This document shows, piece by piece, positions 1,307-14,810 of a stretch of 36,517 bases of DNA (position 1 is the first letter of the stretch; the number at the start of each line of letters is the position of its first letter). The stretch is from Candidatus Saccharimonadota bacterium (GTDB lineage Bacteria > Patescibacteriota > Saccharimonadia > Saccharimonadales > Saccharimonadaceae), in NCBI GenBank assembly GCA_016290315.1, contig JAEETK010000010.1:1-36517 (forward strand), given 5' to 3'. A program made the position numbers and the translations under genes. The notes under the pieces are model-generated. The model saw only the letters and a list, made by a program, of their open reading frames with translations, was not told the DNA's origin and did no database searches.

Positions 1307-1834
1307 ATGGTAAAAGCTATGTTGGATATTATTAACTTCTTCAGGCCGCGTAAGCCGGTGATGTTCGCGTTGGATACTTCGAGCAGCCACGTGGCGAAGC
1401 TGATCTACAAGGTTAACGGCGATGCGTGCGGGAATACTGCTCTCAGAACCGTATATGGGATTCCGTGTTCTTCGACGGCGTTCGGGGCTCCGTGCGAGAC
1501 TGAGATCAGGCTTGCGAGTTATGGCTTTGTACGCGCCTACAGGAAAGGACGGCGTATTGTGATCGAGAGGAATCCGTCAGAAACTCCTCCGGCAGAGGTG
1601 GAGAGCTGGCTCGTATGCCCTGATATGGCCCTGATGATTCCGGAGTATTACGGCAGTAATCCTAATAACGTGTACGTATTTGTACGCGCTCCCTTCGGTG
1701 ACGTCGAGGACCACTACGCAGAAGAGCATGGATGGCCTCGGTACTATCTCGGCGATCTGGTTGTTTCGGATGGCGTTGAGGGGCGGAGGAAATTCTTCGA
1801 GGAGGTGGTAGACAGGGTCTATAACATTCGTTGA
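1307..1834 (+). CDS. Unknown protein, paralogue of the next gene (175 aa)
   Basis: No known family is recognised. The protein is soluble-looking, with no signal peptide or clear membrane segment. It shares four blocks in the same order with the product of 1975-2703: GFVRAYRK (73-80) versus GYVRIYRK, PPAEVESWLV (94-103) versus PPEDCASFLV, PEYYG (112-116) identical, and YYLGDLV (146-152) versus YLLGDTV. The gene is a self-contained unit with a consensus promoter, an AGGAGG site 7 nt before the ATG, and an intrinsic terminator just after the TGA. Coding is certain from the framing and conserved blocks; function is unknown. Confidence 0.85.
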   Translation: MVKAMLDIINFFRPRKPVMFALDTSSSHVAKLIYKVNGDACGNTALRTVYGIPCSSTAFGAPCETEIRLASYGFVRAYRKGRRIVIERNPSETPPAEVESWLVCPDMALMIPEYYGSNPNNVYVFVRAPFGDVEDHYAEEHGWPRYYLGDLVVSDGVEGRRKFFEEVVDRVYNIR

Positions 1835-1974: not shown

Positions 1975-2703
1975 ATGGATAGAAAACGATTGGCATTGTT
2001 TATTATGCCTCATTCTTGCGATTTGGACGAGGATATTGGCCCTGAATTGAGGCGGGACTGGGCGGCTATTTACTATGCGAGTCCGAATATGACTTCGGCA
2101 GTAGAACTGATCGGCACTGCTCAGGAGCGAGCGAAAGACGGTAAAAATGAAGCAAGATGGAGTTTCGATGAAGTTGCTTCTATAAGTCTGCCGCCTACGG
2201 AGTCGCCGGATATAATATTTGGCGTGACTCCTATAATGGTCGAGCGAAGCCTCATTAGGCGTCCACTTCTTTTTGAAGATTTAGGTAGCGTTTATGGCGA
2301 GGGGGCGAAGGGGTGTTTTTACTGTAGCCTTTCGGATTTTGGCTACGTCAGGATTTATCGCAAGCGTGGCGCAACTGGAAGAGTCGATCTTTACGACGAA
2401 GATGTAATACGGCGCCAGTTTCGAATTGAGCGCGATTTGAGCTATATGCCGCCCGAAGACTGTGCTAGCTTCCTTGTGCGAATTGGAATAGACGCGAAGG
2501 GCGTGGAAGCGACTGAGGTCTATCCCGAGTATTACGGTGCTGACTGGAAGAGCCACATATGGAGCGGTTATAGAAACACACATCCATACTTTTGTCGTAG
2601 CAACAAAAGATATCTGCTTGGCGATACGGTGTATTACGATTATTATTTATACTCTGCCAACTTTGTTGTCGGTGTGGCGAGGATATTGATGTCCGACAAG
2701 TAA
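1975..2703 (+). CDS. Unknown protein, paralogue of the preceding gene (242 aa)
   Basis: Not a recognised family. The C-terminal 120 residues carry the blocks shared with the 1307 product: GYVRIYRK (123-130), PPEDCASFLV (159-168), PEYYG (184-188) and YLLGDTV (213-219). The N-terminal 110 residues are longer and differ. The protein is rich in Tyr and has no obvious signal or membrane segment. The start is set by an AGGAGG site 6 nt before the ATG. The gene has its own promoter and terminator, so it is a second cassette rather than part of an operon. Confidence 0.85.
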   Translation: MDRKRLALFIMPHSCDLDEDIGPELRRDWAAIYYASPNMTSAVELIGTAQERAKDGKNEARWSFDEVASISLPPTESPDIIFGVTPIMVERSLIRRPLLFEDLGSVYGEGAKGCFYCSLSDFGYVRIYRKRGATGRVDLYDEDVIRRQFRIERDLSYMPPEDCASFLVRIGIDAKGVEATEVYPEYYGADWKSHIWSGYRNTHPYFCRSNKRYLLGDTVYYDYYLYSANFVVGVARILMSDK

Positions 2704-2737
2704 TCGGCGGGCTACCGTTCGTTTTATCCATTCAAAC

Positions 2738-2766
2738 AAGCTGCGCGTGTGATGCGCAGCTTTTTT
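2738..2766 (+). terminator. Bidirectional terminator between gene 1975 and topA
   Basis: Nine-bp stem AAGCTGCGC / GCGCAGCTT with loop GTGTGAT and a T tract on the plus side. The minus-strand side reads GCTTGTTT, so it may also stop topA transcripts. Confidence 0.85.
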
Positions 2767-2767
2767 A

Positions 2768-5041
2768 TTATTTCTTCGTTGATTTTTTTGTGGCGGTGCG
2801 GCGTTTGGTCGGGCGGCGCGTTTTCTTGGGTTTGTTGGCGAGGTATTCCTCTGCCTGTTCTTTTGTGACGGTTTTCGGATCGACGTCCTTGGGGATACGC
2901 ACAAAATTGCGGCGGCCAGGGCCTTTGACGTATGGTCCGTAGGCGCCTTCTATTATTTGAATTTCTCCCCAATCGGCTATATAAGAGTCGCGTTTTTTCT
3001 CATAGAGCGGTTCGGCTTCTTCTAATGTAATGGTGTATGGATCAAATTCTTTGCCAAGTGGGATGTTATATTTGCCACCTTTTAGATATGGACCGAATGG
3101 GCCAGCGGCGGCAATAATCTCAGCACCATCTTTTGCTTTGCCGAGTAGCCTTGGTAATTGTGGCAGGTCGAGTTGCTTGAGGGCTTGCTCTAGGGTGACG
3201 GTTTTGACGCTTTTGCGTTTTGGTAATGGCGCAAAGACAGGCTTTTCGCCGGATTCTTTTTCGTTTTCGCCTAGCTGGATAAAACCGCCATTTTTGCCCA
3301 CTTTCGCGTAGATGGCTTTGCCGGTTTTAGGGTCGTGCCCAAGCAGACGAGCGTTGTTGTAGCGCTCGATGCCTTCGCTAGCTAGGACTTCGTCATTAAA
3401 AGGTCCGTAGAAATCGCGAAGCATTTTGACGCGGTCGAGCTTTGCGTCGGCGATTAGGTCGAGGTCTTTCTCGATATTAGCGGTAAACTTGTAGTCGACG
3501 ATGTTCTTGAAATTGTCGGTCAAAAAGCCTGAGATAAGTTCGCCAATTGGTGTTGGTAGCAATTTGCCTTTGTTGGCGCCGAACTTTTCTTTGACGGTTT
3601 CTTTGCTGATTTGATTATTTTCCAGCTTTAACTCGGCAACTTCACGCTCTTCCCCGTCGCTTTCGCCCTTTACGACGTAGCCGCGAGCTTGAATTGCGGT
3701 CATGATGCTAGCGTAAGTACTTGGACGGCCAATGCCGAGCTCTTCAAGCTTCTTGACCAGTGAGCCTTCGGTATAGCGCGCTTGTGGTTTAGCAAAGCTT
3801 TGGCGAGCGATGATGCTGTGAGCTGTGAGTTTGTCGCCGACTTTGTAATGTGGGAGTTCATTCTCTTTAATGCGGCCATAGACTTTCAGAAAGCCGTCGA
3901 AGGTTACGATTTCTCCCTTGCCGATAAAGTTGTATTCGGTTGGCGTAGCTATGGTAATAGTAGTACTTTCGATGCGGGCGTCGGCCATTTGCGTAGCGAG
4001 TGCGCGACCGCGGATCAAAGCGTAGAGGCGCTTTTCGTAATCGTTTTTGCCGGCAGTTTCGCGGTTGATGTCGGTTGGGCGAATGGCCTCGTGTGCCTCT
4101 TGTGCGCCAGCGGACTTAGTCTTAAAATTGCGCACTTTGACGTATTCTTTGCCGAATGTAGATTCAACATAGCTAGCCATGCTAGCGATGGCTTGCTTAC
4201 TGAGGTTAAGGCTGTCGGTGCGGTGGTAAGTAATAAGGCCGGCTTGATAAAGAGACTGGGCGGCCTGCATAGTCGTGCGCGTAGAATAGCCAAGCTTACT
4301 GTTAGCCTCGATCTGCATTGAGGCGGTCGTGAAAGGCGGGGCGGGCTTGCGCGTACCGGGGGTAGTCTCGACGGCGCTAGCGGTAAAGTCTGCATTGATT
4401 AGTTTTTCGAGGAAAGCGCGCGCTTCGTCTTCGGTCTCGAATTCATGATTGAGTTTAGTATCGAATCCGAAATCGCCAGAAACCTTATAGGTAAACTTGC
4501 TAGCGAATTTTTCGATAGCCTGTTCCCTTTCGACGATTAGGCGGAGGGCGGGACTCTGAACACGCCCAGCCGAAACGGCGCCAGGAACTTTCTTACGTAC
4601 GACGCCCGAGAGATCGAAACCGACTAGCATATCGAGAGTTTGGCGTGCCTGCTGCGATGAAACCATGTTCATGTCGACAGTGCGGGGATTTTTGATAGCT
4701 TCTTCGAGTGCGGACTTGGTGATTTCATGGAAAGTAATACGGGCAGTATCCTTTGGTAACTTAAGAACTTCGCATAGGTGCCAAGATATAGCTTCTCCTT
4801 CGCGGTCTTCATCCGTCGCGAGCCAGATTTTGTCTGCAGATTTAGCGGCCTTTTTAAGGTCAGTAATAACACTCTTGTGCCCAGGGTCAACTTCATAGGT
4901 GACGTCAAAAGTATTCTTATCGACCTTCGTGTCTTTGCGAATATGTCCAACAGAAGCTAATACGACAAAATCTTTACCGAGATATTTCTCGATGGTATGA
5001 GCTTTAGCTGGAGACTCTACGATAACTAAGTTTTTACTCAT
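2768..5041 (-). CDS. topA: DNA topoisomerase I
   Basis: Type IA topoisomerase of 757 aa that relaxes negative supercoils. The TOPRIM domain opens the protein (VIVESPAKA, E9) and holds the metal-binding block TDEDREGEA (D77, D79, E81). The catalytic tyrosine is Y272 in ITYHRTDS; most homologues have ITYMRTDS. After about residue 600 there are topoisomerase C-terminal repeats with GPFGPYLKGGKYNIPL and GAYGPYVKGPGRRNFV in place of zinc fingers. The protein ends in a Lys/Arg-rich tail of about 20 residues. No Shine-Dalgarno precedes the ATG; a TATTAT box sits 7 nt upstream, so the mRNA is probably leaderless. It diverges from gene 5100. Confidence 0.97.
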   Translation of the reverse strand: MSKNLVIVESPAKAHTIEKYLGKDFVVLASVGHIRKDTKVDKNTFDVTYEVDPGHKSVITDLKKAAKSADKIWLATDEDREGEAISWHLCEVLKLPKDTARITFHEITKSALEEAIKNPRTVDMNMVSSQQARQTLDMLVGFDLSGVVRKKVPGAVSAGRVQSPALRLIVEREQAIEKFASKFTYKVSGDFGFDTKLNHEFETEDEARAFLEKLINADFTASAVETTPGTRKPAPPFTTASMQIEANSKLGYSTRTTMQAAQSLYQAGLITYHRTDSLNLSKQAIASMASYVESTFGKEYVKVRNFKTKSAGAQEAHEAIRPTDINRETAGKNDYEKRLYALIRGRALATQMADARIESTTITIATPTEYNFIGKGEIVTFDGFLKVYGRIKENELPHYKVGDKLTAHSIIARQSFAKPQARYTEGSLVKKLEELGIGRPSTYASIMTAIQARGYVVKGESDGEEREVAELKLENNQISKETVKEKFGANKGKLLPTPIGELISGFLTDNFKNIVDYKFTANIEKDLDLIADAKLDRVKMLRDFYGPFNDEVLASEGIERYNNARLLGHDPKTGKAIYAKVGKNGGFIQLGENEKESGEKPVFAPLPKRKSVKTVTLEQALKQLDLPQLPRLLGKAKDGAEIIAAAGPFGPYLKGGKYNIPLGKEFDPYTITLEEAEPLYEKKRDSYIADWGEIQIIEGAYGPYVKGPGRRNFVRIPKDVDPKTVTKEQAEEYLANKPKKTRRPTKRRTATKKSTKK

Positions 5042-6187: not shown

Positions 6188-8092
6188 ATGAAGAAGAGAA
6201 CTCGACTGATATGGCTAATAATTGCATTATTAGTAGCCGCGATTGTGTCCTGGTTTAAGTTGTTGCCGGCATTTAATATTAAGGACGGCAGATTCTTAGG
6301 CTGGGTAGTGTCCGTAACTGCTGGCATTGTCCTGATCATGATTTCGACGGCTGGTAATTGGTGGTTTGGCAGCTACAACACCTTCTTTGAGTCGGTGGAG
6401 GCCGTATGGAAATCGAAAAACAAGGTGTTGAGGCGTTTCTTCAGGGTAGAAGTAGGTCTTTTAGGTATTTTTGGCGTATTGTCGCTATATAAGATAATAC
6501 TTCCGTACACTGGATCGTTTTGGGCATGTCTTTCTGGCGCGACGATATTAATCGTCGGCGTCCCGTTAGTGGCCTATCTGCGAAAGAGGCATCGGAAGAG
6601 AATGAGGCGGCGTACGACTATGGATGGAGAGTCGCAGAATCCGAAATCGAAGAAGCGCAAGATATTTGGCTATATTGTCGCTATTCTTATCACTCTTATC
6701 GCAGCTTCGTTTATTGGATACATCTGCGGGGCTCAGGTATTCAGAGCAAAAGAATACTATAATCTTCTGCGTATAAACGCCGAAGAGGGGACTATCGATG
6801 ATATACCCTCAAGCCTTGACAGTATTGCGATAATGGATACGGAAAGCGCGAAGGCGCTTGGAGATACTGAGATTGGTAGTATTTCGGCTAAATCTCAGTT
6901 TGAAGTGTCAGATAATTATGTTCAGCTTAACGTGAATGGAAAGCCATTAAAAGTGGCGCCATTGAAGTATGCTGATTTCGTAAAATGGCTGATGAACTTC
7001 GATAAGGGTATACCGGGCTACGTTGAAGTTGACCCGGCGGTCGACAACGGCAACTCGGAATATATTCCGTTCGACGAAAAAGAGGGCGGTATGATCTATG
7101 ATAATTCCGCTGCTTTATGGCAGAACATAGAGCTTAGGCTGCGTTTGGCGCATCCTACGATGATGTTCCTTACTCCTCACTTGGAATGCGATGACGAGGG
7201 TGGAAAGTGGCTGATTGCCCCGGTCTATGATTATAAGATTGGACTATTCGGCGGCCAAGACATGGTGGGCGCCATTATTGTTAATCCATTCAAGGATAAA
7301 TGGAGCGAGAATTATTATCGTCTGGATCAAATTCCGGACTGGGTGGATTACGTATTTGATGGCAATCTGCTGTGCGATCAGTATAACTTCTACGGTAAAT
7401 ACGCTGAAGGCTTTCTCAATGGTAATTTTGGCCAAGTCGGTTGCTCTAAGGTGACTGAGGACAATGGGGCTGGAATCGATTACGGCTATCTTACGACTGG
7501 TGCCGATATATCGATTTATACTGGTATCAAGTCGATGACCGCTAGTAGCTCTGACCATGGTTTTCTGTTGGCGAATGGGCGAACTGGTGAAGCGACGTAT
7601 ATTGAATATGCATCCGTAGATGAATTTTCGGCTATGACTTCCGCTGCGCAAGATGCGAGCGAGAAGCAGTATACGCCTTGCTTCCCCTCACTTACGAGGC
7701 AGCAGGTCAACAATCGCGAGTATGTGGTATATTTTGGAGCACTAAAGGATGCGCGCGGATTTATCAAGCGGTACTACGTAGTCGACGCGACTCAGGGCTC
7801 AATTGCTTCTGTAGGCGATAGCCGTAAGAAAGCGCTCGAGAATTTTGCAAACAAAGTCGGCGGTTTTCCGACAATGGAAAGCGAAGAGGAGATTGATCTG
7901 TCGAGTTACCATAAGGTAAAGGTGACGATTGACCGAATCGTGTTCACTTCTGATGGCGTGGTCTATCTAGTAACGGACGACTACAAGCGATATTATACGT
8001 CCAAATTCCGGGCAGATTATGTACTGTTGAAGGAAGGGGGCGATTATGTCATTCTGACCGATGATGTCCACTTCTACTATGAGGCAAAGTAA
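6188..8092 (+). CDS. Large membrane protein with extracytoplasmic domain, unknown function (634 aa)
   Basis: Five hydrophobic segments lie at about 7-26, 37-54, 88-105, 111-131 and 159-181, with a very basic loop at 132-158. About 450 residues after the last segment are probably outside the cell. The C-terminal 60 residues (from YHKVKVTIDRIVFTS) look like a small beta barrel. No family is recognised with confidence. The start at 6188 is preferred over the in-frame ATG at 6152 because TTGGAGG ends 7 nt before it and the next residues start a membrane segment. It is a single-gene unit with promoter and terminator. Confidence 0.8.
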   Translation: MKKRTRLIWLIIALLVAAIVSWFKLLPAFNIKDGRFLGWVVSVTAGIVLIMISTAGNWWFGSYNTFFESVEAVWKSKNKVLRRFFRVEVGLLGIFGVLSLYKIILPYTGSFWACLSGATILIVGVPLVAYLRKRHRKRMRRRTTMDGESQNPKSKKRKIFGYIVAILITLIAASFIGYICGAQVFRAKEYYNLLRINAEEGTIDDIPSSLDSIAIMDTESAKALGDTEIGSISAKSQFEVSDNYVQLNVNGKPLKVAPLKYADFVKWLMNFDKGIPGYVEVDPAVDNGNSEYIPFDEKEGGMIYDNSAALWQNIELRLRLAHPTMMFLTPHLECDDEGGKWLIAPVYDYKIGLFGGQDMVGAIIVNPFKDKWSENYYRLDQIPDWVDYVFDGNLLCDQYNFYGKYAEGFLNGNFGQVGCSKVTEDNGAGIDYGYLTTGADISIYTGIKSMTASSSDHGFLLANGRTGEATYIEYASVDEFSAMTSAAQDASEKQYTPCFPSLTRQQVNNREYVVYFGALKDARGFIKRYYVVDATQGSIASVGDSRKKALENFANKVGGFPTMESEEEIDLSSYHKVKVTIDRIVFTSDGVVYLVTDDYKRYYTSKFRADYVLLKEGGDYVILTDDVHFYYEAK

Positions 8093-8779: not shown

Positions 8780-10345
8780 TTAACGCGGCCAAGATCGAGC
8801 GATAATCTGTGCGCCGGGGCGAATGATATTCCCGCCGTCGAAACAGATTATGGCTACGCTCGGGTCTTTGCTGAGGTATCGAACGGCGCGCATTAATGGA
8901 TTGCCATACCATCCGAAAGGATTGTCGACCTGACTCGGATCTCCACAGAACACTATTTTTGTTCCGATGTCGCAGCGCTCTATGAATGCCTTTAGCTGGG
9001 CCAGGGAGTTAAATTGCGCCTCGTCGCAGATGATGAACCTGTTCCAAAAATCTCGACCGTTAATTTGGCCAGGTGTGCATAATTCGAAACGATTAAAAAT
9101 CGCCTCTGCCCGATAAGCGATATTTGACTCGGAAGCCTGGCGACCGCCGCGCGCCTTATCGTTTAATGTGCGTAAAAAGTTGCGTATATTGTCTCGATAG
9201 GCATCGGCTTTGTCATTTAACTTTGCGCGCTTATCTCCCGGTACGGCTCCGAGATCTCTGCCCAACATACCGTCAGGCAAACAAACGCTAATGCCCTGGT
9301 ACGGATATGTCTTGAGCTCTTTGGGTTCCGGAATAAAAAGGAGTGGCGTATCTTTTTCTTTTGCGCAGTTAGCGTTGTCGGCTTTGTCGGCTTTGTTACG
9401 CTTTCTACGAGCGCCCTTGCGGTTTGCATTGTTGTCGGATTCGTGGTCTGAGTCGATTACTCTAGTAGAATCCATTATGCTTGTTTGCGCTAATGCGGCT
9501 GAGACTGTTGAAAATGTTTTACCCGATCCGGCATTACCGTAAAGTATGACCGTACTAATTATGTTTGCGGGGGCCATCATCGCTTCGAATGCCATTGCTT
9601 GTCTTTCGCCAATAGGTTTAATTCCAGATATGTTTTGGTAATAGGTAAGCGGTACGATAGTCTCCGTGGCTGCGTCGTATCTGCCGATGTGGCCGAACGA
9701 ATTGCCTCTTGCATGTCCGAATAGAATAAATTCATGAGGCTTGAGCGGGTCAGTGTTCGGCGACTCTTCCTGCCATACGTCGAGCGGCATTTTCTTGTAT
9801 CTTTGCCAGAAAGCGATGGCATTCTCATTCTCTGTGCGATAATAACCGGTATATGGAGCCGGAGAGGCCGTAATGACATTCAAGTTGGGCTTGTATATTG
9901 TCGACGGCTTCATTTCTGAGCTGTTGGTTAGGAGAACTACATTGTCGTTACCCAGCAGGCCGCCCCAGTGCTCGGAAAGGGCAATAGAGTTCATCAGATG
10001 CTCGCCTTCTATCCTCGCTCCGCTGTATTTATGCTCATCGTAGTCAAATGCAACAGACAAGTTGTTGATGGTGTAGACCTTGACCGCCGTTTTGCCAAGT
10101 GTGCTTTCGTGGCCATAAGTGGTGATGTTCTTCAGGTGGGCGATGAGTTCGCTCGCGGCAACTCCTCGATCTGTTTTTTCTCCGGACATACGATGTGCAG
10201 CTCTTTGGTACAAATCGGAAATGATCAGATGTCGTTCCGGCAGATCTGCGGTCGGATCGAAATATTCCGGGAAGTTCAGTGCCGTATTATAGTCTATGAC
10301 GTAGTGAATATTGGGCCTAAAAACAAACGATTCTTCCTTGCACAT
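8780..10345 (-). CDS. PIN/PhoH-like ATPase (521 aa)
   Basis: The C-terminal half is a PhoH-family P-loop ATPase: Walker A GNAGSGKT (270-277), Walker B FIICDEAQ (437-444) and FCGDPSQVD (466-474). The N-terminus HYVIDYNTAL resembles the start of a PIN nuclease domain, and VVLLTNSSEMK (136-146) sits where PIN domains have a TND-type motif; here the aspartate is lost, so the nuclease may be inactive. A charged low-complexity insert (about 296-332, Lys/Arg/Asn/Asp-rich) follows Walker A, making the protein longer than usual. PIN-PhoH proteins are known as RNA helicase/RNases. The start at 10345 has AGGAGGG 9 nt upstream. Confidence 0.85.
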   Translation of the reverse strand: MCKEESFVFRPNIHYVIDYNTALNFPEYFDPTADLPERHLIISDLYQRAAHRMSGEKTDRGVAASELIAHLKNITTYGHESTLGKTAVKVYTINNLSVAFDYDEHKYSGARIEGEHLMNSIALSEHWGGLLGNDNVVLLTNSSEMKPSTIYKPNLNVITASPAPYTGYYRTENENAIAFWQRYKKMPLDVWQEESPNTDPLKPHEFILFGHARGNSFGHIGRYDAATETIVPLTYYQNISGIKPIGERQAMAFEAMMAPANIISTVILYGNAGSGKTFSTVSAALAQTSIMDSTRVIDSDHESDNNANRKGARRKRNKADKADNANCAKEKDTPLLFIPEPKELKTYPYQGISVCLPDGMLGRDLGAVPGDKRAKLNDKADAYRDNIRNFLRTLNDKARGGRQASESNIAYRAEAIFNRFELCTPGQINGRDFWNRFIICDEAQFNSLAQLKAFIERCDIGTKIVFCGDPSQVDNPFGWYGNPLMRAVRYLSKDPSVAIICFDGGNIIRPGAQIIARSWPR

Positions 10346-10390
10346 TAGAATTACCCTCCTATGCTTGCTAAGTTGATAAGATACTAACAA

Positions 10391-10425
10391 AATAAGCTCA
10401 AGCAAATGCTAGAGCCCACCTTATT
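10391..10425 (-). promoter_or_regulatory. 5'-terminal leader hairpin of the PhoH-like mRNA
   Basis: AATAAG pairs with CTTATT, and inside it GCTC-AGCA pairs with TGCT-GAGC. The hairpin begins at about the predicted transcription start and could stabilise or regulate the mRNA. Confidence 0.5.
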
Positions 10426-10545: not shown

Positions 10546-11202
10546 ATGAGTTTGTCAGAAGTAATGGATGTTCCCGAGCCGTCTCTTGCTAGGATGGACG
10601 AAAAAGAATGTCTGGATAAGTTAAGGAGAATCGGACTTATTCCGGGTTGGCCAAATCCTGACGATGAGCGCGATAGGAAGCGATTAAGCTATTCGGGAGG
10701 TTTCTCGATAGATGGCTATTGTGCTGTGCGGATACAAAATATGTTGCGTTCCGCAAAGAAAGAGAGTCTCGATCAGATAATCGTTGGCCTGATAGTGGAC
10801 GCTGTTGCGCCGGTGGTCGATTTGGTAGTGTTAGCAAAGAGGTTGGTTGAGGAAATGAGTGTTGGCGGCCATATTGATTGCGGCGACGTTCCAGACGATC
10901 TTCTTATGACTATTACTAGCGAAGAATTTCAGCCGGTAGTTGCCTGCGTAATTGCGAACTTGGAGAGCGAACAGCTTAAGGCGTTGGTCGCTAAACTTGC
11001 TCGGAGTAGCATTCGGCTAATTGGTGGGTATCGCGCAGAAATCGTGCGCGCCATTTACTGTTGCAACATCGTAGACGATGGCGTGTTACTGGGCTGTCTA
11101 GCCGACAGTATGTTTGAGGTTGTAGACGACGGCGAACATTATGTCATATGGAGCTCGGATCGCATTCCTGTTTTGCCTATTGCGATTAACGAGGCGAGAT
11201 AA
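10546..11202 (+). CDS. Unknown protein (218 aa)
   Basis: No family is recognised. It is predicted mostly helical and acidic, with hydrophobic helices at about 80-104 and 129-160 that look amphipathic rather than clearly membrane-spanning. A Cys pair occurs at YCC in the third quarter. The start follows ATGGAGGTG, 5-6 nt before the ATG. It is a single-gene unit divergent from the PhoH-like gene, with a strong terminator after the stop. A partner role with PhoH is possible only from position. Confidence 0.75.
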   Translation: MSLSEVMDVPEPSLARMDEKECLDKLRRIGLIPGWPNPDDERDRKRLSYSGGFSIDGYCAVRIQNMLRSAKKESLDQIIVGLIVDAVAPVVDLVVLAKRLVEEMSVGGHIDCGDVPDDLLMTITSEEFQPVVACVIANLESEQLKALVAKLARSSIRLIGGYRAEIVRAIYCCNIVDDGVLLGCLADSMFEVVDDGEHYVIWSSDRIPVLPIAINEAR

Positions 11203-11280: not shown

Positions 11281-12582
11281 TTAATCGCGATTACGAAAAC
11301 TAAAGAAGATTGGTGTGCCAGTAAAGTCAAAAGCCTCGCGAAGACGACGTTCGAGATAGCGCTTGTAGCTCCAGTGTAGGAGACTAAGATTACTACCGTA
11401 TACAACAAACCATGGCGGACAAGTATCAGTCTGTACCATATAGCGGAGTTTTGGGTGCGTATTCTTGAGGCCGGCCGGCGGATGTGAGCGCACGGCGTCT
11501 TCGAGGAGCTTATTAAGGTCGGAAGTTTTAAGCTCGGCATGGCGGGCTTGGTCGATTTTTTGCGCTAACTCAAAGATTTTAGTAACATTTTTGCCGGTAA
11601 GGCTAGATGTCATGATGACGGGTGCATATGGAATGAAGTTAAAATCATACTCGAGGTTGTCGAGAATTTCGTCGGATTCTTTATGCTCGAGGTCGGTTTT
11701 TGTAACTACAAGAATAATACCTTTGCCAGCTTTGACGATTTCGCCAGCAAGTGATTGGTCGAGTTTGGAGTGTGGCTCGGTACTATCTATGAGTAAGCAA
11801 CAGACGTCGGCTTCTTCGATGGCGGCAAGGCTACGCAAGGCGCTGAATTTTTCGATGCCCACTTCCCTTTTGCCGGGCTTGCGTAGGCCGGCAGTGTCGA
11901 GCAGCTCGATGGTTTGACCTTTATATTTGAGCTCGGTACGGTTAATGTCACGGGTGGTGCCAGAAAGATTTGCCACGATAGCTTGTTGTTTTTTGGCCAA
12001 GGAATTAAACAGGCTGGATTTACCAACATTTGGGCGGCCAATGAGAGCAACTTTTAATGCGTTGGAGTCTGGCTCTTTCTTGCCAAGATTAAGGTTGAGA
12101 GCTTTGAGTTCTTGTTCGATATTGTTGCGCAATTCGTTGAGGTGAAGCCCGGTTGTTGCGGAGACGCGAAGCGGGTTTTTGATGCCGAGGCTATAGAATT
12201 CTTCTAGAGGAAGGGCTTCGCCCATATCGGATTTGTTTAGTAGTAGTAAGACTGGTTTGTTGGATTTGAGGGCCTTCTTGGCAATAAGCTTATCGTCTTG
12301 GTTTGGATATTTAGTGGAATCCATGGCGATTAAGATTAGGTCTGCAGAGGTGACGGCGTCATCGATTTGGTCTTGAATGTGCGTCTCGAATTCGTCGTCT
12401 GGATCTTTGAGGCCAGCAGTATCAATGAGGATATATTTGCCTTCTACTTTTCCGACTACGTTATCGCGAGTGGTGCCAGCCTCGCGCGCGACGATTGCCT
12501 GAGGCTTGCGGACGAGCCGATTGAATAAGCTAGATTTACCGGCGTTAGTTTGGCCGATGATTGCTACTACTGGTAATTTCAT
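11281..12582 (-). CDS. der: Ribosome-assembly GTPase Der (EngA)
   Basis: Tandem GTPase of 433 aa needed for 50S subunit maturation. The first G domain has GQTNAGKS (10-17), DTAG (54-57) and NKSD (116-119). The second has GRPNVGKS (182-189), DTAGLRKPGKR and TKTD. The KH-like C-terminal domain ends with the family's GTPIFFSFRNRD. No Shine-Dalgarno is seen. A minus-strand promoter TTGCGC (12612-12617), 17 bp, TAAACT (12589-12594) ends 6 nt before the ATG, so the mRNA should be leaderless. This promoter interlocks with that of the divergent gene 12682. Confidence 0.97.
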   Translation of the reverse strand: MKLPVVAIIGQTNAGKSSLFNRLVRKPQAIVAREAGTTRDNVVGKVEGKYILIDTAGLKDPDDEFETHIQDQIDDAVTSADLILIAMDSTKYPNQDDKLIAKKALKSNKPVLLLLNKSDMGEALPLEEFYSLGIKNPLRVSATTGLHLNELRNNIEQELKALNLNLGKKEPDSNALKVALIGRPNVGKSSLFNSLAKKQQAIVANLSGTTRDINRTELKYKGQTIELLDTAGLRKPGKREVGIEKFSALRSLAAIEEADVCCLLIDSTEPHSKLDQSLAGEIVKAGKGIILVVTKTDLEHKESDEILDNLEYDFNFIPYAPVIMTSSLTGKNVTKIFELAQKIDQARHAELKTSDLNKLLEDAVRSHPPAGLKNTHPKLRYMVQTDTCPPWFVVYGSNLSLLHWSYKRYLERRLREAFDFTGTPIFFSFRNRD

Positions 12583-12588
12583 AGTCTT

Positions 12589-12617
12589 AGTTTAGCAAAA
12601 TTGACAAAAACGCGCAA
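12589..12617 (-). promoter_or_regulatory. Leaderless promoter of der
   Basis: TTGCGC, a 17-bp spacer and TGC-TAAACT, then 6 nt to the ATG. The -35 lies in the spacer of the opposite promoter (12601-12629). Confidence 0.7.
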
Positions 12618-12629
12618 GTGTTCTATAAT
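12601..12629 (+). promoter_or_regulatory. Consensus promoter of gene 12682
   Basis: TTGACA (12601-12606), a 17-bp spacer and TATAAT (12624-12629). The segment AAGTGTTCTATAATAT is identical to that of the promoter at 13514. Confidence 0.9.
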
Positions 12630-12681
12630 ATATAGGTTACCTATCAACAATGGTTTGTACTTTTGAAGGGAGGCAAGAAGG

Positions 12682-13458
12682 ATGTGTCACTACAGAATAG
12701 CCACATTGGTACGAAGGGTCGTTCGAGAGCGAGATGGGGTGAGAAGATATCGATCTTCGGTGCCCGGTCTGCCTCTGGCGACGTATGAGCTCCTCGAGGA
12801 GGTGTGTGATGCGATTGAGTTTGCGCCACGCAAGACTCAGGATCTCTTTGCTAGAGAGATGGCCGAGGCGATCGAGCGACTCTTTGCAAAAGAGCACGAT
12901 TCAAGATGCGATGAACGCCCAACGGAGAGCAACTTCATGATAAGAGTGTACGCGTTTAGTGAGGGGCGCGCTTTTCAGGCCATCGACATTGCTACGGCAA
13001 CCAATCATCTATATGAGTTGTTGTTAGCGTTAAGCAACGACGATAGCTTTTGCTTGTCGGTATGCAAAAAAATTAAAGCATACGGGGCGAACGGTTGCCA
13101 CGGCGGTTATTGCTTGACCAATTACGGCTACAATAATGTTTCTGCTCGCGCGATCGTGCCAGACGAGATCGTCGACGTGTCGAGTGAGTGGTGCCTTCAG
13201 CTGAAAAATATGAATGCCCAATTGTCTACCGATTGGCTGCGGCATTTGGAAGTGGCCATCGAGAGGCGTATCGTTCAGATATTAAGCTATTATCTCGACG
13301 ATGGGGCAAATTCAACCTCTGTGGTTGTCGATGATGCGTTTGTCTCGAGCGTGATCTATGAGATTGTGCCGAGTGGGCACGAGCTGACAATGCCGACTCC
13401 GCCGCTTCGGAAGGTTGTATACTATTCTCGGGTTGCAGGCTGCTCCCTTACCTGCTAA
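12682..13458 (+). CDS. Unknown Cys-rich protein, paralogue of gene 13586 (258 aa)
   Basis: No named family is recognised. It shares with the 13586 product SVPGLP (26-31), a helix at 183-197 (TDWLRHLEVAIERRI against DKWFLHFEAALARRI) and VVDDAFV (215-221). It has ten cysteines, several in a central cluster (124-144, including NGCHGGYC), which the paralogue lacks; metal binding or disulfides are possible. There is no signal peptide. The start has GGGAGG 8 nt upstream. The unit has a perfect consensus promoter and its own terminator. Function unknown. Confidence 0.85.
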   Translation: MCHYRIATLVRRVVRERDGVRRYRSSVPGLPLATYELLEEVCDAIEFAPRKTQDLFAREMAEAIERLFAKEHDSRCDERPTESNFMIRVYAFSEGRAFQAIDIATATNHLYELLLALSNDDSFCLSVCKKIKAYGANGCHGGYCLTNYGYNNVSARAIVPDEIVDVSSEWCLQLKNMNAQLSTDWLRHLEVAIERRIVQILSYYLDDGANSTSVVVDDAFVSSVIYEIVPSGHELTMPTPPLRKVVYYSRVAGCSLTC

Positions 13459-13464
13459 AAATAC

Positions 13465-13491
13465 GGCCACCAGTTAAACTGGCGGCCTTTT
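13465..13491 (+). terminator. Terminator of gene 12682
   Basis: GGCCACCAG / CTGGCGGCC stem with one mismatch and loop TTAAA-like, followed by four T. Confidence 0.85.
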
Positions 13492-13513
13492 ACTGCTCTC
13501 GAGTTTCTATTTA

Positions 13514-13542
13514 TTGACAAAAAAGCATAAGTGTTCTATAAT
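13514..13542 (+). promoter_or_regulatory. Consensus promoter of gene 13586
   Basis: TTGACA (13514-13519), a 17-bp spacer and TATAAT (13537-13542), nearly identical to the promoter at 12601. Confidence 0.9.
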
Positions 13543-13585
13543 ATAAAGATAGATTCATTGTTGAATAGAACTTTCGGAGGTGATT

Positions 13586-14317
13586 ATGTACTATATTTCA
13601 GAACGCGTATGGCGTGGTCTTATGCGGGAAAATTTCGAGTATCGAGATTCCGTCCCTGGATTGCCGGTAATTACGTACTGGATTTACGAGCGGGCTTGCT
13701 CGAAGTTTGGAGAATATGAACAGTCCGAGGAGGGGTTCGCATATGCAATTGCGGATGCTATTAAGCAGTATGTAGATATTATTGGCGAAGAGCTCCCCTC
13801 GAGTTATCGGGTAAGATGCTCTGATGGTGAGATGTGGCCCTGCCACAAGCGCACCCTTGAGTATGCTCGCTATATCGGGCAGATAATCAAGGTTCTGGGT
13901 AGCTTCGACCGAGAAAAATCTGATCAGGAAAAGGCGGAGCAGTGTCAGATGATCATTGATCTGGTGAAGGAGCATGGATTCAATATTAATCCTCGCCACC
14001 AGTTTGTGTCGCAGGAACGGTGGCCGGAGTATGTTTCTAAGGCTACTGAAAAGTGGCGAGACCACCTGAAAGAGCTCTGCGCTATCGACAATGCGACGCT
14101 CGACGACAAATGGTTCCTGCATTTCGAGGCGGCTCTGGCCAGACGAATAATCGAGCGCACGAGGGGTCGCGAGAGGGTGTCCTTCGCTGTCGATGAAGCT
14201 TTCGTGATGAACGTAATGGCGGAGATTGACTGCACTTTTATGTTTGGCTACGATGTAAAATTGCAGACCTTCTCCGTGTTGTTAACAAAAAAGAAGAGGG
14301 GGCATGTTGCCTCCTAA
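13586..14317 (+). CDS. Unknown protein, paralogue of gene 12682 (243 aa)
   Basis: It shares SVPGLP (22-27), the helix DDKWFLHFEAALARRI (173-188) and AVDEAFV (201-207) with its upstream neighbour, in the same order and with similar spacing. It has far fewer cysteines and a basic C-terminus (KKKRGH). The ATG at 13586 follows TCGGAGG by 5 nt; the in-frame GTG at 13580 overlaps that site and is less likely. It has its own consensus promoter and terminator. Function unknown. Confidence 0.85.
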   Translation: MYYISERVWRGLMRENFEYRDSVPGLPVITYWIYERACSKFGEYEQSEEGFAYAIADAIKQYVDIIGEELPSSYRVRCSDGEMWPCHKRTLEYARYIGQIIKVLGSFDREKSDQEKAEQCQMIIDLVKEHGFNINPRHQFVSQERWPEYVSKATEKWRDHLKELCAIDNATLDDKWFLHFEAALARRIIERTRGRERVSFAVDEAFVMNVMAEIDCTFMFGYDVKLQTFSVLLTKKKRGHVAS

Positions 14318-14319
14318 CA

Positions 14320-14349
14320 AAAAGGCCACCGCTTTGGCGGTGGCTATTT
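14320..14349. terminator. Bidirectional terminator between gene 13586 and vanZ-like gene
   Basis: Nine-bp stem GGCCACCGC / GCGGTGGCT with a TTTG loop. A T tract follows on the plus side and five T on the minus side. Confidence 0.9.
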
Positions 14350-14360
14350 TCATGGTTATG

Positions 14361-14810
14361 TTATCGGGAGACTTTTTTGATTTGTCGACGGATGCGCCAG
14401 CGACGCCAGAAACAGAAGATGGCGATATAGACTAGGGTGCCAAATATGCCAGCAATAAAATCCAAGAATATGTCGCTAATTGCGCCGTTGCGCCCCATGA
14501 TGGTGAGCTGATGAACTTCATCAATGGCGCCATAAGCGACGCAGAGGATGATTGGGTATAGTAGCAGAGTGAAATTTGGGAATTCGGCGGAATGTAAACC
14601 TTTGACGAAACTGGAGATGGAATAGCCGAGCGCGCCAAACAGCACGAAGTGTGCAAGTTTGCGAGCTAGTGCGTTAGAGATACCGAGCCACGCGGAAAAG
14701 ATACTCGATTGATTGTTGGAATTTTCTCCGTTAGCTGCCGAAAAATGCCAGATAAGAATGACGAAGAAAATCGGAAAGATAATGCGCCAATAGCGGCGGA
14801 TGATTTTCAT
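14361..14810 (-). CDS. VanZ-family membrane protein (149 aa)
   Basis: Small polytopic membrane protein with hydrophobic stretches at about 9-22, 52-68, 82-96 and 113-134. VanZ signatures are RKLAHFVLFG (50-59), DEVHQLTIMGRNG (97-109) and SDIFLDFIAG (112-121). VanZ relatives affect glycopeptide sensitivity in some Gram-positives, but most have no known role. The start at 14810 was chosen over longer frames that would run into the tRNA gene; GGGAG lies 11 nt upstream. A TATAAT at 14863-14868 on the minus strand is its likely -10. Confidence 0.85.
   Translation of the reverse strand: MKIIRRYWRIIFPIFFVILIWHFSAANGENSNNQSSIFSAWLGISNALARKLAHFVLFGALGYSISSFVKGLHSAEFPNFTLLLYPIILCVAYGAIDEVHQLTIMGRNGAISDIFLDFIAGIFGTLVYIAIFCFWRRWRIRRQIKKVSR

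Follow-up and report, generated by a model that had tools for sequence, protein, structure and literature searches.

The window, which is the whole stretch of 36,517 nucleotides that was analysed, is contig 46 of a 1.2-Mb Saccharibacteria genome in 74 contigs, and we focused on the interval between der and a gene encoding a membrane protein that we take, from general knowledge of the family, to be VanZ-like. This interval holds two tandem genes, each preceded by its own promoter (P1 and P2), the coordinates of which are collected in Table 1; all promoters and terminators here are predictions. On the plus strand, the hairpin downstream of gene 1 reads GGCCACCAGTTAAACTGGCGGCC followed by TTTTA. 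The best start of gene 2 is an ATG preceded by GGAGG, and the start given in the ORF list, the GTG at 13580, overlaps this ribosome-binding site. When the window was compared with Rfam, a tRNA was the only match.

Table 1. Genes and predicted signals in the interval between der and the vanZ-like gene (window coordinates)
Feature	Position	Strand	Remarks
der (EngA, double-GTPase ribosome assembly factor)	11281–12582	-	ORF list; divergent from gene 1
der promoter, inferred	12589–12617	-	-35 TTGCGC 12617–12612, 17 nt, -10 TAAACT 12594–12589; interleaved with P1
P1, predicted promoter of gene 1	12601–12629	+	perfect TTGACA-N17-TATAAT
Gene 1, orphan protein of 258 aa, 10 Cys	12682–13458	+	ORF list, BLASTP, motifs
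Hairpin and T-run 3' of gene 1, candidate terminator	13465–13487	+	scored on minus strand
P2, predicted promoter of gene 2	13514–13542	+	perfect TTGACA-N17-TATAAT
Gene 2, paralogue of gene 1, 243 aa	13586–14317	+	adjoins vanZ-like gene
Bidirectional terminator, gene 2/vanZ-like gene	14324–14345	+	predicted from sequence
vanZ-like membrane protein gene	14361–14810	-	ORF list; conserved right neighbour

The two products are clearly related, as an earlier note on this DNA had claimed on the basis of shared motifs. BLASTP aligns them with 59/221 identities (27%, E 4e-14), and their local alignment score of 142 compares with a mean of 32 (sd 4.7) and a maximum of 55 in 1000 shuffles. All of the named motifs were found: SVPGLP is in both products, together with DWLRHLEVAIERRI/KWFLHFEAALARRI and the pair VDDAFV (gene 1)/VDEAFV (gene 2). 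The further claim, that ten cysteines are present in the first copy only, is correct as a count (10 in the gene 1 product, 6 in that of gene 2), and the gene 1 orthologues have 10–12, with nine cysteine columns invariant in all four sequences, but 4–8 cysteines are present in copy 2 and its orthologues, and likewise in the outgroup copies described below. Since the three lineages of the family form a star, the direction of gain or loss between the copies is not polarised. Four of the invariant cysteines in gene 1 are arranged as C-x3-C-x10-C-x4-C (residues 124–144), a candidate metal-binding site. No membrane segment or signal peptide was found in the family proteins, in which 19-residue hydropathy reaches a maximum of 1.2, and we infer that they are soluble and mostly helical. 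The structural model of gene 1, which is helical (mean pLDDT 71, pTM 0.73), probably comprises a helical bundle at the N-terminus and an alpha/beta domain at the C-terminus, while the model of gene 2 (pLDDT 64.6) is too poor for fold searching. Two other orphans of the window, starting at 10546 and 1975, were considered as members of the same family and rejected, with hhalign probabilities of 0.2 and 0.1%, respectively.

The family is indeed an orphan one, as had been proposed. Among the 394 genomes of the taxonomic family that were searched, full-length matches occur in six species of a single Saccharibacteria genus; the 392 genomes of the class added no new member, a species-wide contig collection has five loci with the family, and viral contigs have none. 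The genome of the window was likewise searched for additional members, and the count stayed at six species. Furthermore, no match at a convincing E-value was obtained in Pfam, NCBIfam, PHROG, PADLOC, PDB or viral libraries. Several small matches were set aside as chance, namely a seventh listed match that is a 46-column fragment with a stop (G194, E 0.009), matches in G136, G237, G058 and G129 that contain stops or span only fragments, a short open match in G109 that was unconfirmed by profile search, and a 37-column match in G441 from the class search.

Both genes are found at the same place in three near species (L020, L021 and L022), with 85–91% identity (86–91% for the gene 1 orthologues), while der and the vanZ-like gene are 98–100% identical there, with 99–100% for der itself. 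Two outgroup species (L023 and L024), in which der is ~88% identical, have a single copy between der and the vanZ-like gene, two genes that are adjacent across most of the genus. In a Der tree, the carriers of the pair form one group and the carriers of the single copy another, inside a 10-genome clade that also includes four species without the family gene. The dN/dS values among orthologues (0.11–0.23 for gene 1, 0.14–0.24 for gene 2) and between the two single copies (0.32) are well below 1, and the genes therefore encode real proteins under purifying selection. The same comparisons give 0.005–0.016 for der and 0–0.04 for the vanZ-like gene, and genes 1 and 2 evolve 10–40 times faster than neighbouring der. 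The protein tree is a star with three branches of 1.27, 1.29 and 1.42 changes per site leading to gene 1, gene 2 and the single copy, and it therefore shows neither which copy is older nor whether the duplication came before or after the split from the single-copy species. As a separate observation, the leader of the single copy (L023 9822–9955, L024 9823–9955) has an inverted repeat, TATCGCATG...CATGCGATA, around a ribosome-binding site and a possible reading frame of 8 codons.

P1 turned out to be an element of the whole genus. Upstream of der, 29 of 30 genomes have it right after the start of the gene and reading away from it, and the thirtieth (L091) has it with a decayed -10. TTGACA and the 17-nt spacing are present in all 30 genomes and AAGTGT in 29, while the -10 is an exact TATAAT in 25 and differs from it by one base in four, L091 making up the remainder. 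The opposite strand of the same 40 bases reads TTGCG or TTTAC, 17 nt and TAnAAT across the 30 genomes, a pattern that evidently represents the der promoter. The -35 of each promoter falls within the spacer of the other, and AAGTG in P1 borders and partly forms the der -35, which explains much of this P1 motif. An intrinsic terminator lies no more than 70 nt downstream of P1 in 20 of the 26 genomes that lack the pair (1.7 expected from shuffles); in the regions upstream of der in L068–L093 it is usually common to the convergent vanZ-like gene. P1 without a gene is thus predicted to yield a transcript of a few dozen bases. P1 was also sought upstream of der in other genera of the taxonomic family, where it was not found as a shared element. 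Because P1 is so widespread in the genus and 24 of the 30 genomes have no family gene beside it, its distribution indicates that P1 is older than gene 1, by which it would have been captured rather than brought along.

The history that we consider likely is that the orphan tandem pair was inserted between der and the vanZ-like gene, where P1 is the older element and one copy, gene 1, was placed under it. The order of features in the two groups of species is what suggests this: L023 and L024 have P1, a terminator, a second promoter, one gene and vanZ, and the window clade has P1, gene 1, a hairpin, P2, gene 2 and vanZ, with no terminator after P1. The original copy with its own promoter would have sat where L023 and L024 still have it, in the stretch from the P1 terminator to vanZ; in the ancestor of the window clade, P1 would have lost its terminator and a second copy would have come to follow it directly; and duplication of promoter plus gene, or conversion, would have made the promoter cores of both copies alike. 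Gene 2 probably occupies the original place, because both its position and its leader match the outgroup gene. When leaders were compared, that of gene 2 was the best match to the leader of L024 (ranks 1–4 of 62) and took ranks 1, 5, 8 and 9 of 62 against that of L023. Gene 1 would then most likely be the copy that P1 came to drive upon loss of the terminator. The promoter of the outgroup gene was also considered as the direct parent of the P2 spacer, which is unsupported (spacer ranks 37–54 of 62), and its spacer bears no clear resemblance to P1 or P2. The gene is missing from four species that der places at least as near, and a loss or a separate gain is therefore required.

Alternatively, both copies could be old, the duplication having preceded the split, in which case the single-copy species would have lost gene 1 while retaining P1 and a terminator, and the likeness of the promoters would reflect later gene conversion. 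The star-shaped protein tree with its equally long branches fits such a history, and the outgroup has retained two promoters in the interval. We nevertheless find this rather unlikely, given that the 24 genomes of the genus in which P1 occurs without a family gene, usually with a terminator, include the four close species, so that the P1-terminator arrangement of the outgroup requires no gene loss. Furthermore, visual inspection of the outgroup interval revealed no remnant of gene 1.

The earlier note described the two promoters as near identical and took this to mean that the whole unit, including its regulation, had been duplicated. Our pattern searches and comparisons of genome stretches show that the 16-mer AAGTGTTCTATAATAT occurs exactly only at P1 and P2 in the 1.2-Mb genome, with two mismatches at the next best places, and that the two spacers are identical at 14/17 positions. 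However, other promoter pairs in the genome reach 13/17, a margin of one match. In one comparison, of 435 promoter pairs, no other pair equals P1/P2 in spacer likeness, and in another, of 561 pairs, two others tie with it. P1/P2 thus rank first or joint first, with little separating them from other pairs.

In a rival reading, the two promoters would be alike only through their closeness to the strong housekeeping consensus of this genome, the genes having been duplicated and their regulation acquired or kept independently. TTGACA-17-TATAAT with at most one mismatch is found at 103 sites in the genome versus 13 for a control pattern, and the hexamers themselves therefore say little about kinship between P1 and P2. 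In 22 of the 30 perfect sites, TG lies ahead of the base preceding TATAAT; unrelated promoter pairs reach 13–14/17; and the P1 and P2 flanks are not unusually alike, with 6/12 identities in the 12 bases upstream and 6/12 in the 12 downstream. We still regard this explanation as unlikely, because it accounts neither for the 16-mer confined to P1 and P2 nor for TTC directly before TATAAT, which among the 30 perfect sites is found at P1 and P2 only. It also leaves aside the likeness being kept in four species and the outcome of a search of the whole genome for the composite der/P1 element with at most three mismatches, in which P1 ranks first, P2 second and controls give nothing. P2, where AGTTTC stands in place of the AGTTTA at the der -10 of the window clade, further shares with P1 the AGT at the place of the der -10 and AAGTG, and includes AAGTGTTC. 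The ranking of the composite element and the AGTTTC suggest, without proving it, that promoter and gene were duplicated or converted together. The likeness of P1 and P2 is therefore modestly above background and in part a matter of the general promoter consensus of this genome, and P2 does look P1-derived or P1-homogenised. To this extent the proposal that regulation was duplicated with the gene finds partial support; it does not extend to P1 itself, which appears to predate gene 1 and to have been captured.

In the capture history that we favour, genes 1 and 2 would each be read as a single-gene message by the housekeeping RNA polymerase. Since each -35 lies inside the spacer of the other promoter, polymerase is not expected to occupy P1 and the der promoter together: a polymerase bound for gene 1 would exclude one bound for der, and gene 1 should be expressed at the expense of der and vice versa. 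Such a trade-off, which would involve an essential gene, should be measurable. Opposed overlapping promoters at which one polymerase excludes the other are a property of the bidirectional promoters of Warman et al. (PMC12825309), in which the -10 is shared and the start sites are 10–23 bp apart in the five tested cases. The parallel, which we draw from sequence, has its limits, because at P1/der the -10s lie outside and the -35s are interleaved, the starts would be ~50 bp apart, and instead of a shared symmetric -10 there are separate hexamers at 12589–12594 and 12624–12629. It is conceivable, though unlikely, that P1 has been kept since polymerase competition sets the level of Der, and that gene 1 turned a terminator-RNA by-product into a message, coupling the orphan protein to ribosome assembly capacity.

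As to what the proteins do, we tentatively suggest, with more doubt than confidence, that they act inside the cell as binding proteins of an immunity- or adaptor-like kind, a guess prompted by their arrangement as tandem duplicates, their rapid change and a match to Imm3 (PF14425) that lies below threshold. Structural comparisons of the gene 1 model gave as best matches a BTG/Tob fold for the C-terminal half (mouse TIS21, 3djn; Z 7.3 over 93 residues) and a spidroin N-terminal domain for the N-terminal half (4fbs; Z 7.0). The BTG/Tob score ties with unrelated folds, both scores are in the range reached by unrelated helical folds, and a Z below 8 on a model with a mean pLDDT of 71 is to be read with that in mind, so that the two matches may reflect a common arrangement only. 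Foldseek searches of the same model against PDB and viral libraries gave no match with E below 0.8.

More specifically, the pair could be a tandem array of immunity proteins or antitoxins, directed against toxins of hosts or kin. Tandem duplication, fast divergence and the cytosolic prediction all fit, and the Imm3 match is seen in three members (best E 0.0099); in gene 2 it is a weak profile similarity over residues 39–118, between proteins that are both soluble and helical. This is nonetheless quite unlikely, because the score is 12.5 bits, far below the gathering cut-off of 25, and unrelated families score about equally, no toxin gene adjoins the pair, and no PADLOC family was matched (best E 0.049). 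It is improbable that the proteins are effectors directed at the host and exported through the type IV-like apparatus of these epibionts: the genes are orphan, fast-evolving and monocistronic with strong predicted promoters, and cultivated Saccharibacteria live attached to host bacteria (PMC10633639), but the proteins lack both a signal peptide and a membrane segment, their dN/dS values are far from reaching 1, and no link to secretion genes was seen in the window.

Genes 1 and 2 resemble other tandem lineage-specific orphan genes of bacteria, being adjacent, on the same strand, restricted in distribution and fast under purifying selection, with their own promoters. They differ in that the promoter of one copy predates the gene itself and elsewhere usually leads into a terminator. 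The gene pair is thus a new orphan family of an ordinary kind, and a further example of Saccharibacteria expanding fast-changing proteins, while the geneless, genus-wide promoter and its capture are more interesting. The origin of the promoters of new bacterial genes is an open question, and since three states occur among related genomes, namely the promoter alone, a family gene with a promoter of its own, and a family gene driven by the older promoter, the steps are testable.

Several minor observations concern other fast-changing or duplicated genes. Another orphan pair in the window (1307–1834 and 1975–2703) is also paralogous (E 5e-6), and apparently only one related gene is present at this locus in L023 and L024. 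At L055 (G000 C69:14000-18500), two tandem orphan membrane proteins are encoded on the minus strand (1793–2251 and 2437–3333; 33% identity, E 3e-20), and their promoters share 14/17 spacer positions, the same pattern as in genes 1 and 2. The PhoH-like ATPase gene at 8780–10405 of the window has counterparts at the same place in near-identical genomes that are 23–29% identical, with flanks at 93–100%, and would be a hypervariable or swapped gene. L101 contains three diverged duplicates (3625–4347, 7065–7703 and 8824–9483) with a CxxxxCxM plus CxxC pattern; they had no Pfam match, and the pattern presumably resembles that of archaemetzincins, with a catalytic HExxH that looks altered (HVLGH in one). 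Distant relatives of the window orphan on the other side of der (10546–11202) occur in this genome and G094 (L101 4478–5092, L103 1204–1935), and each of the two has, no more than ~1 kb away, a transposase-like gene that shows an integrase-type pattern.
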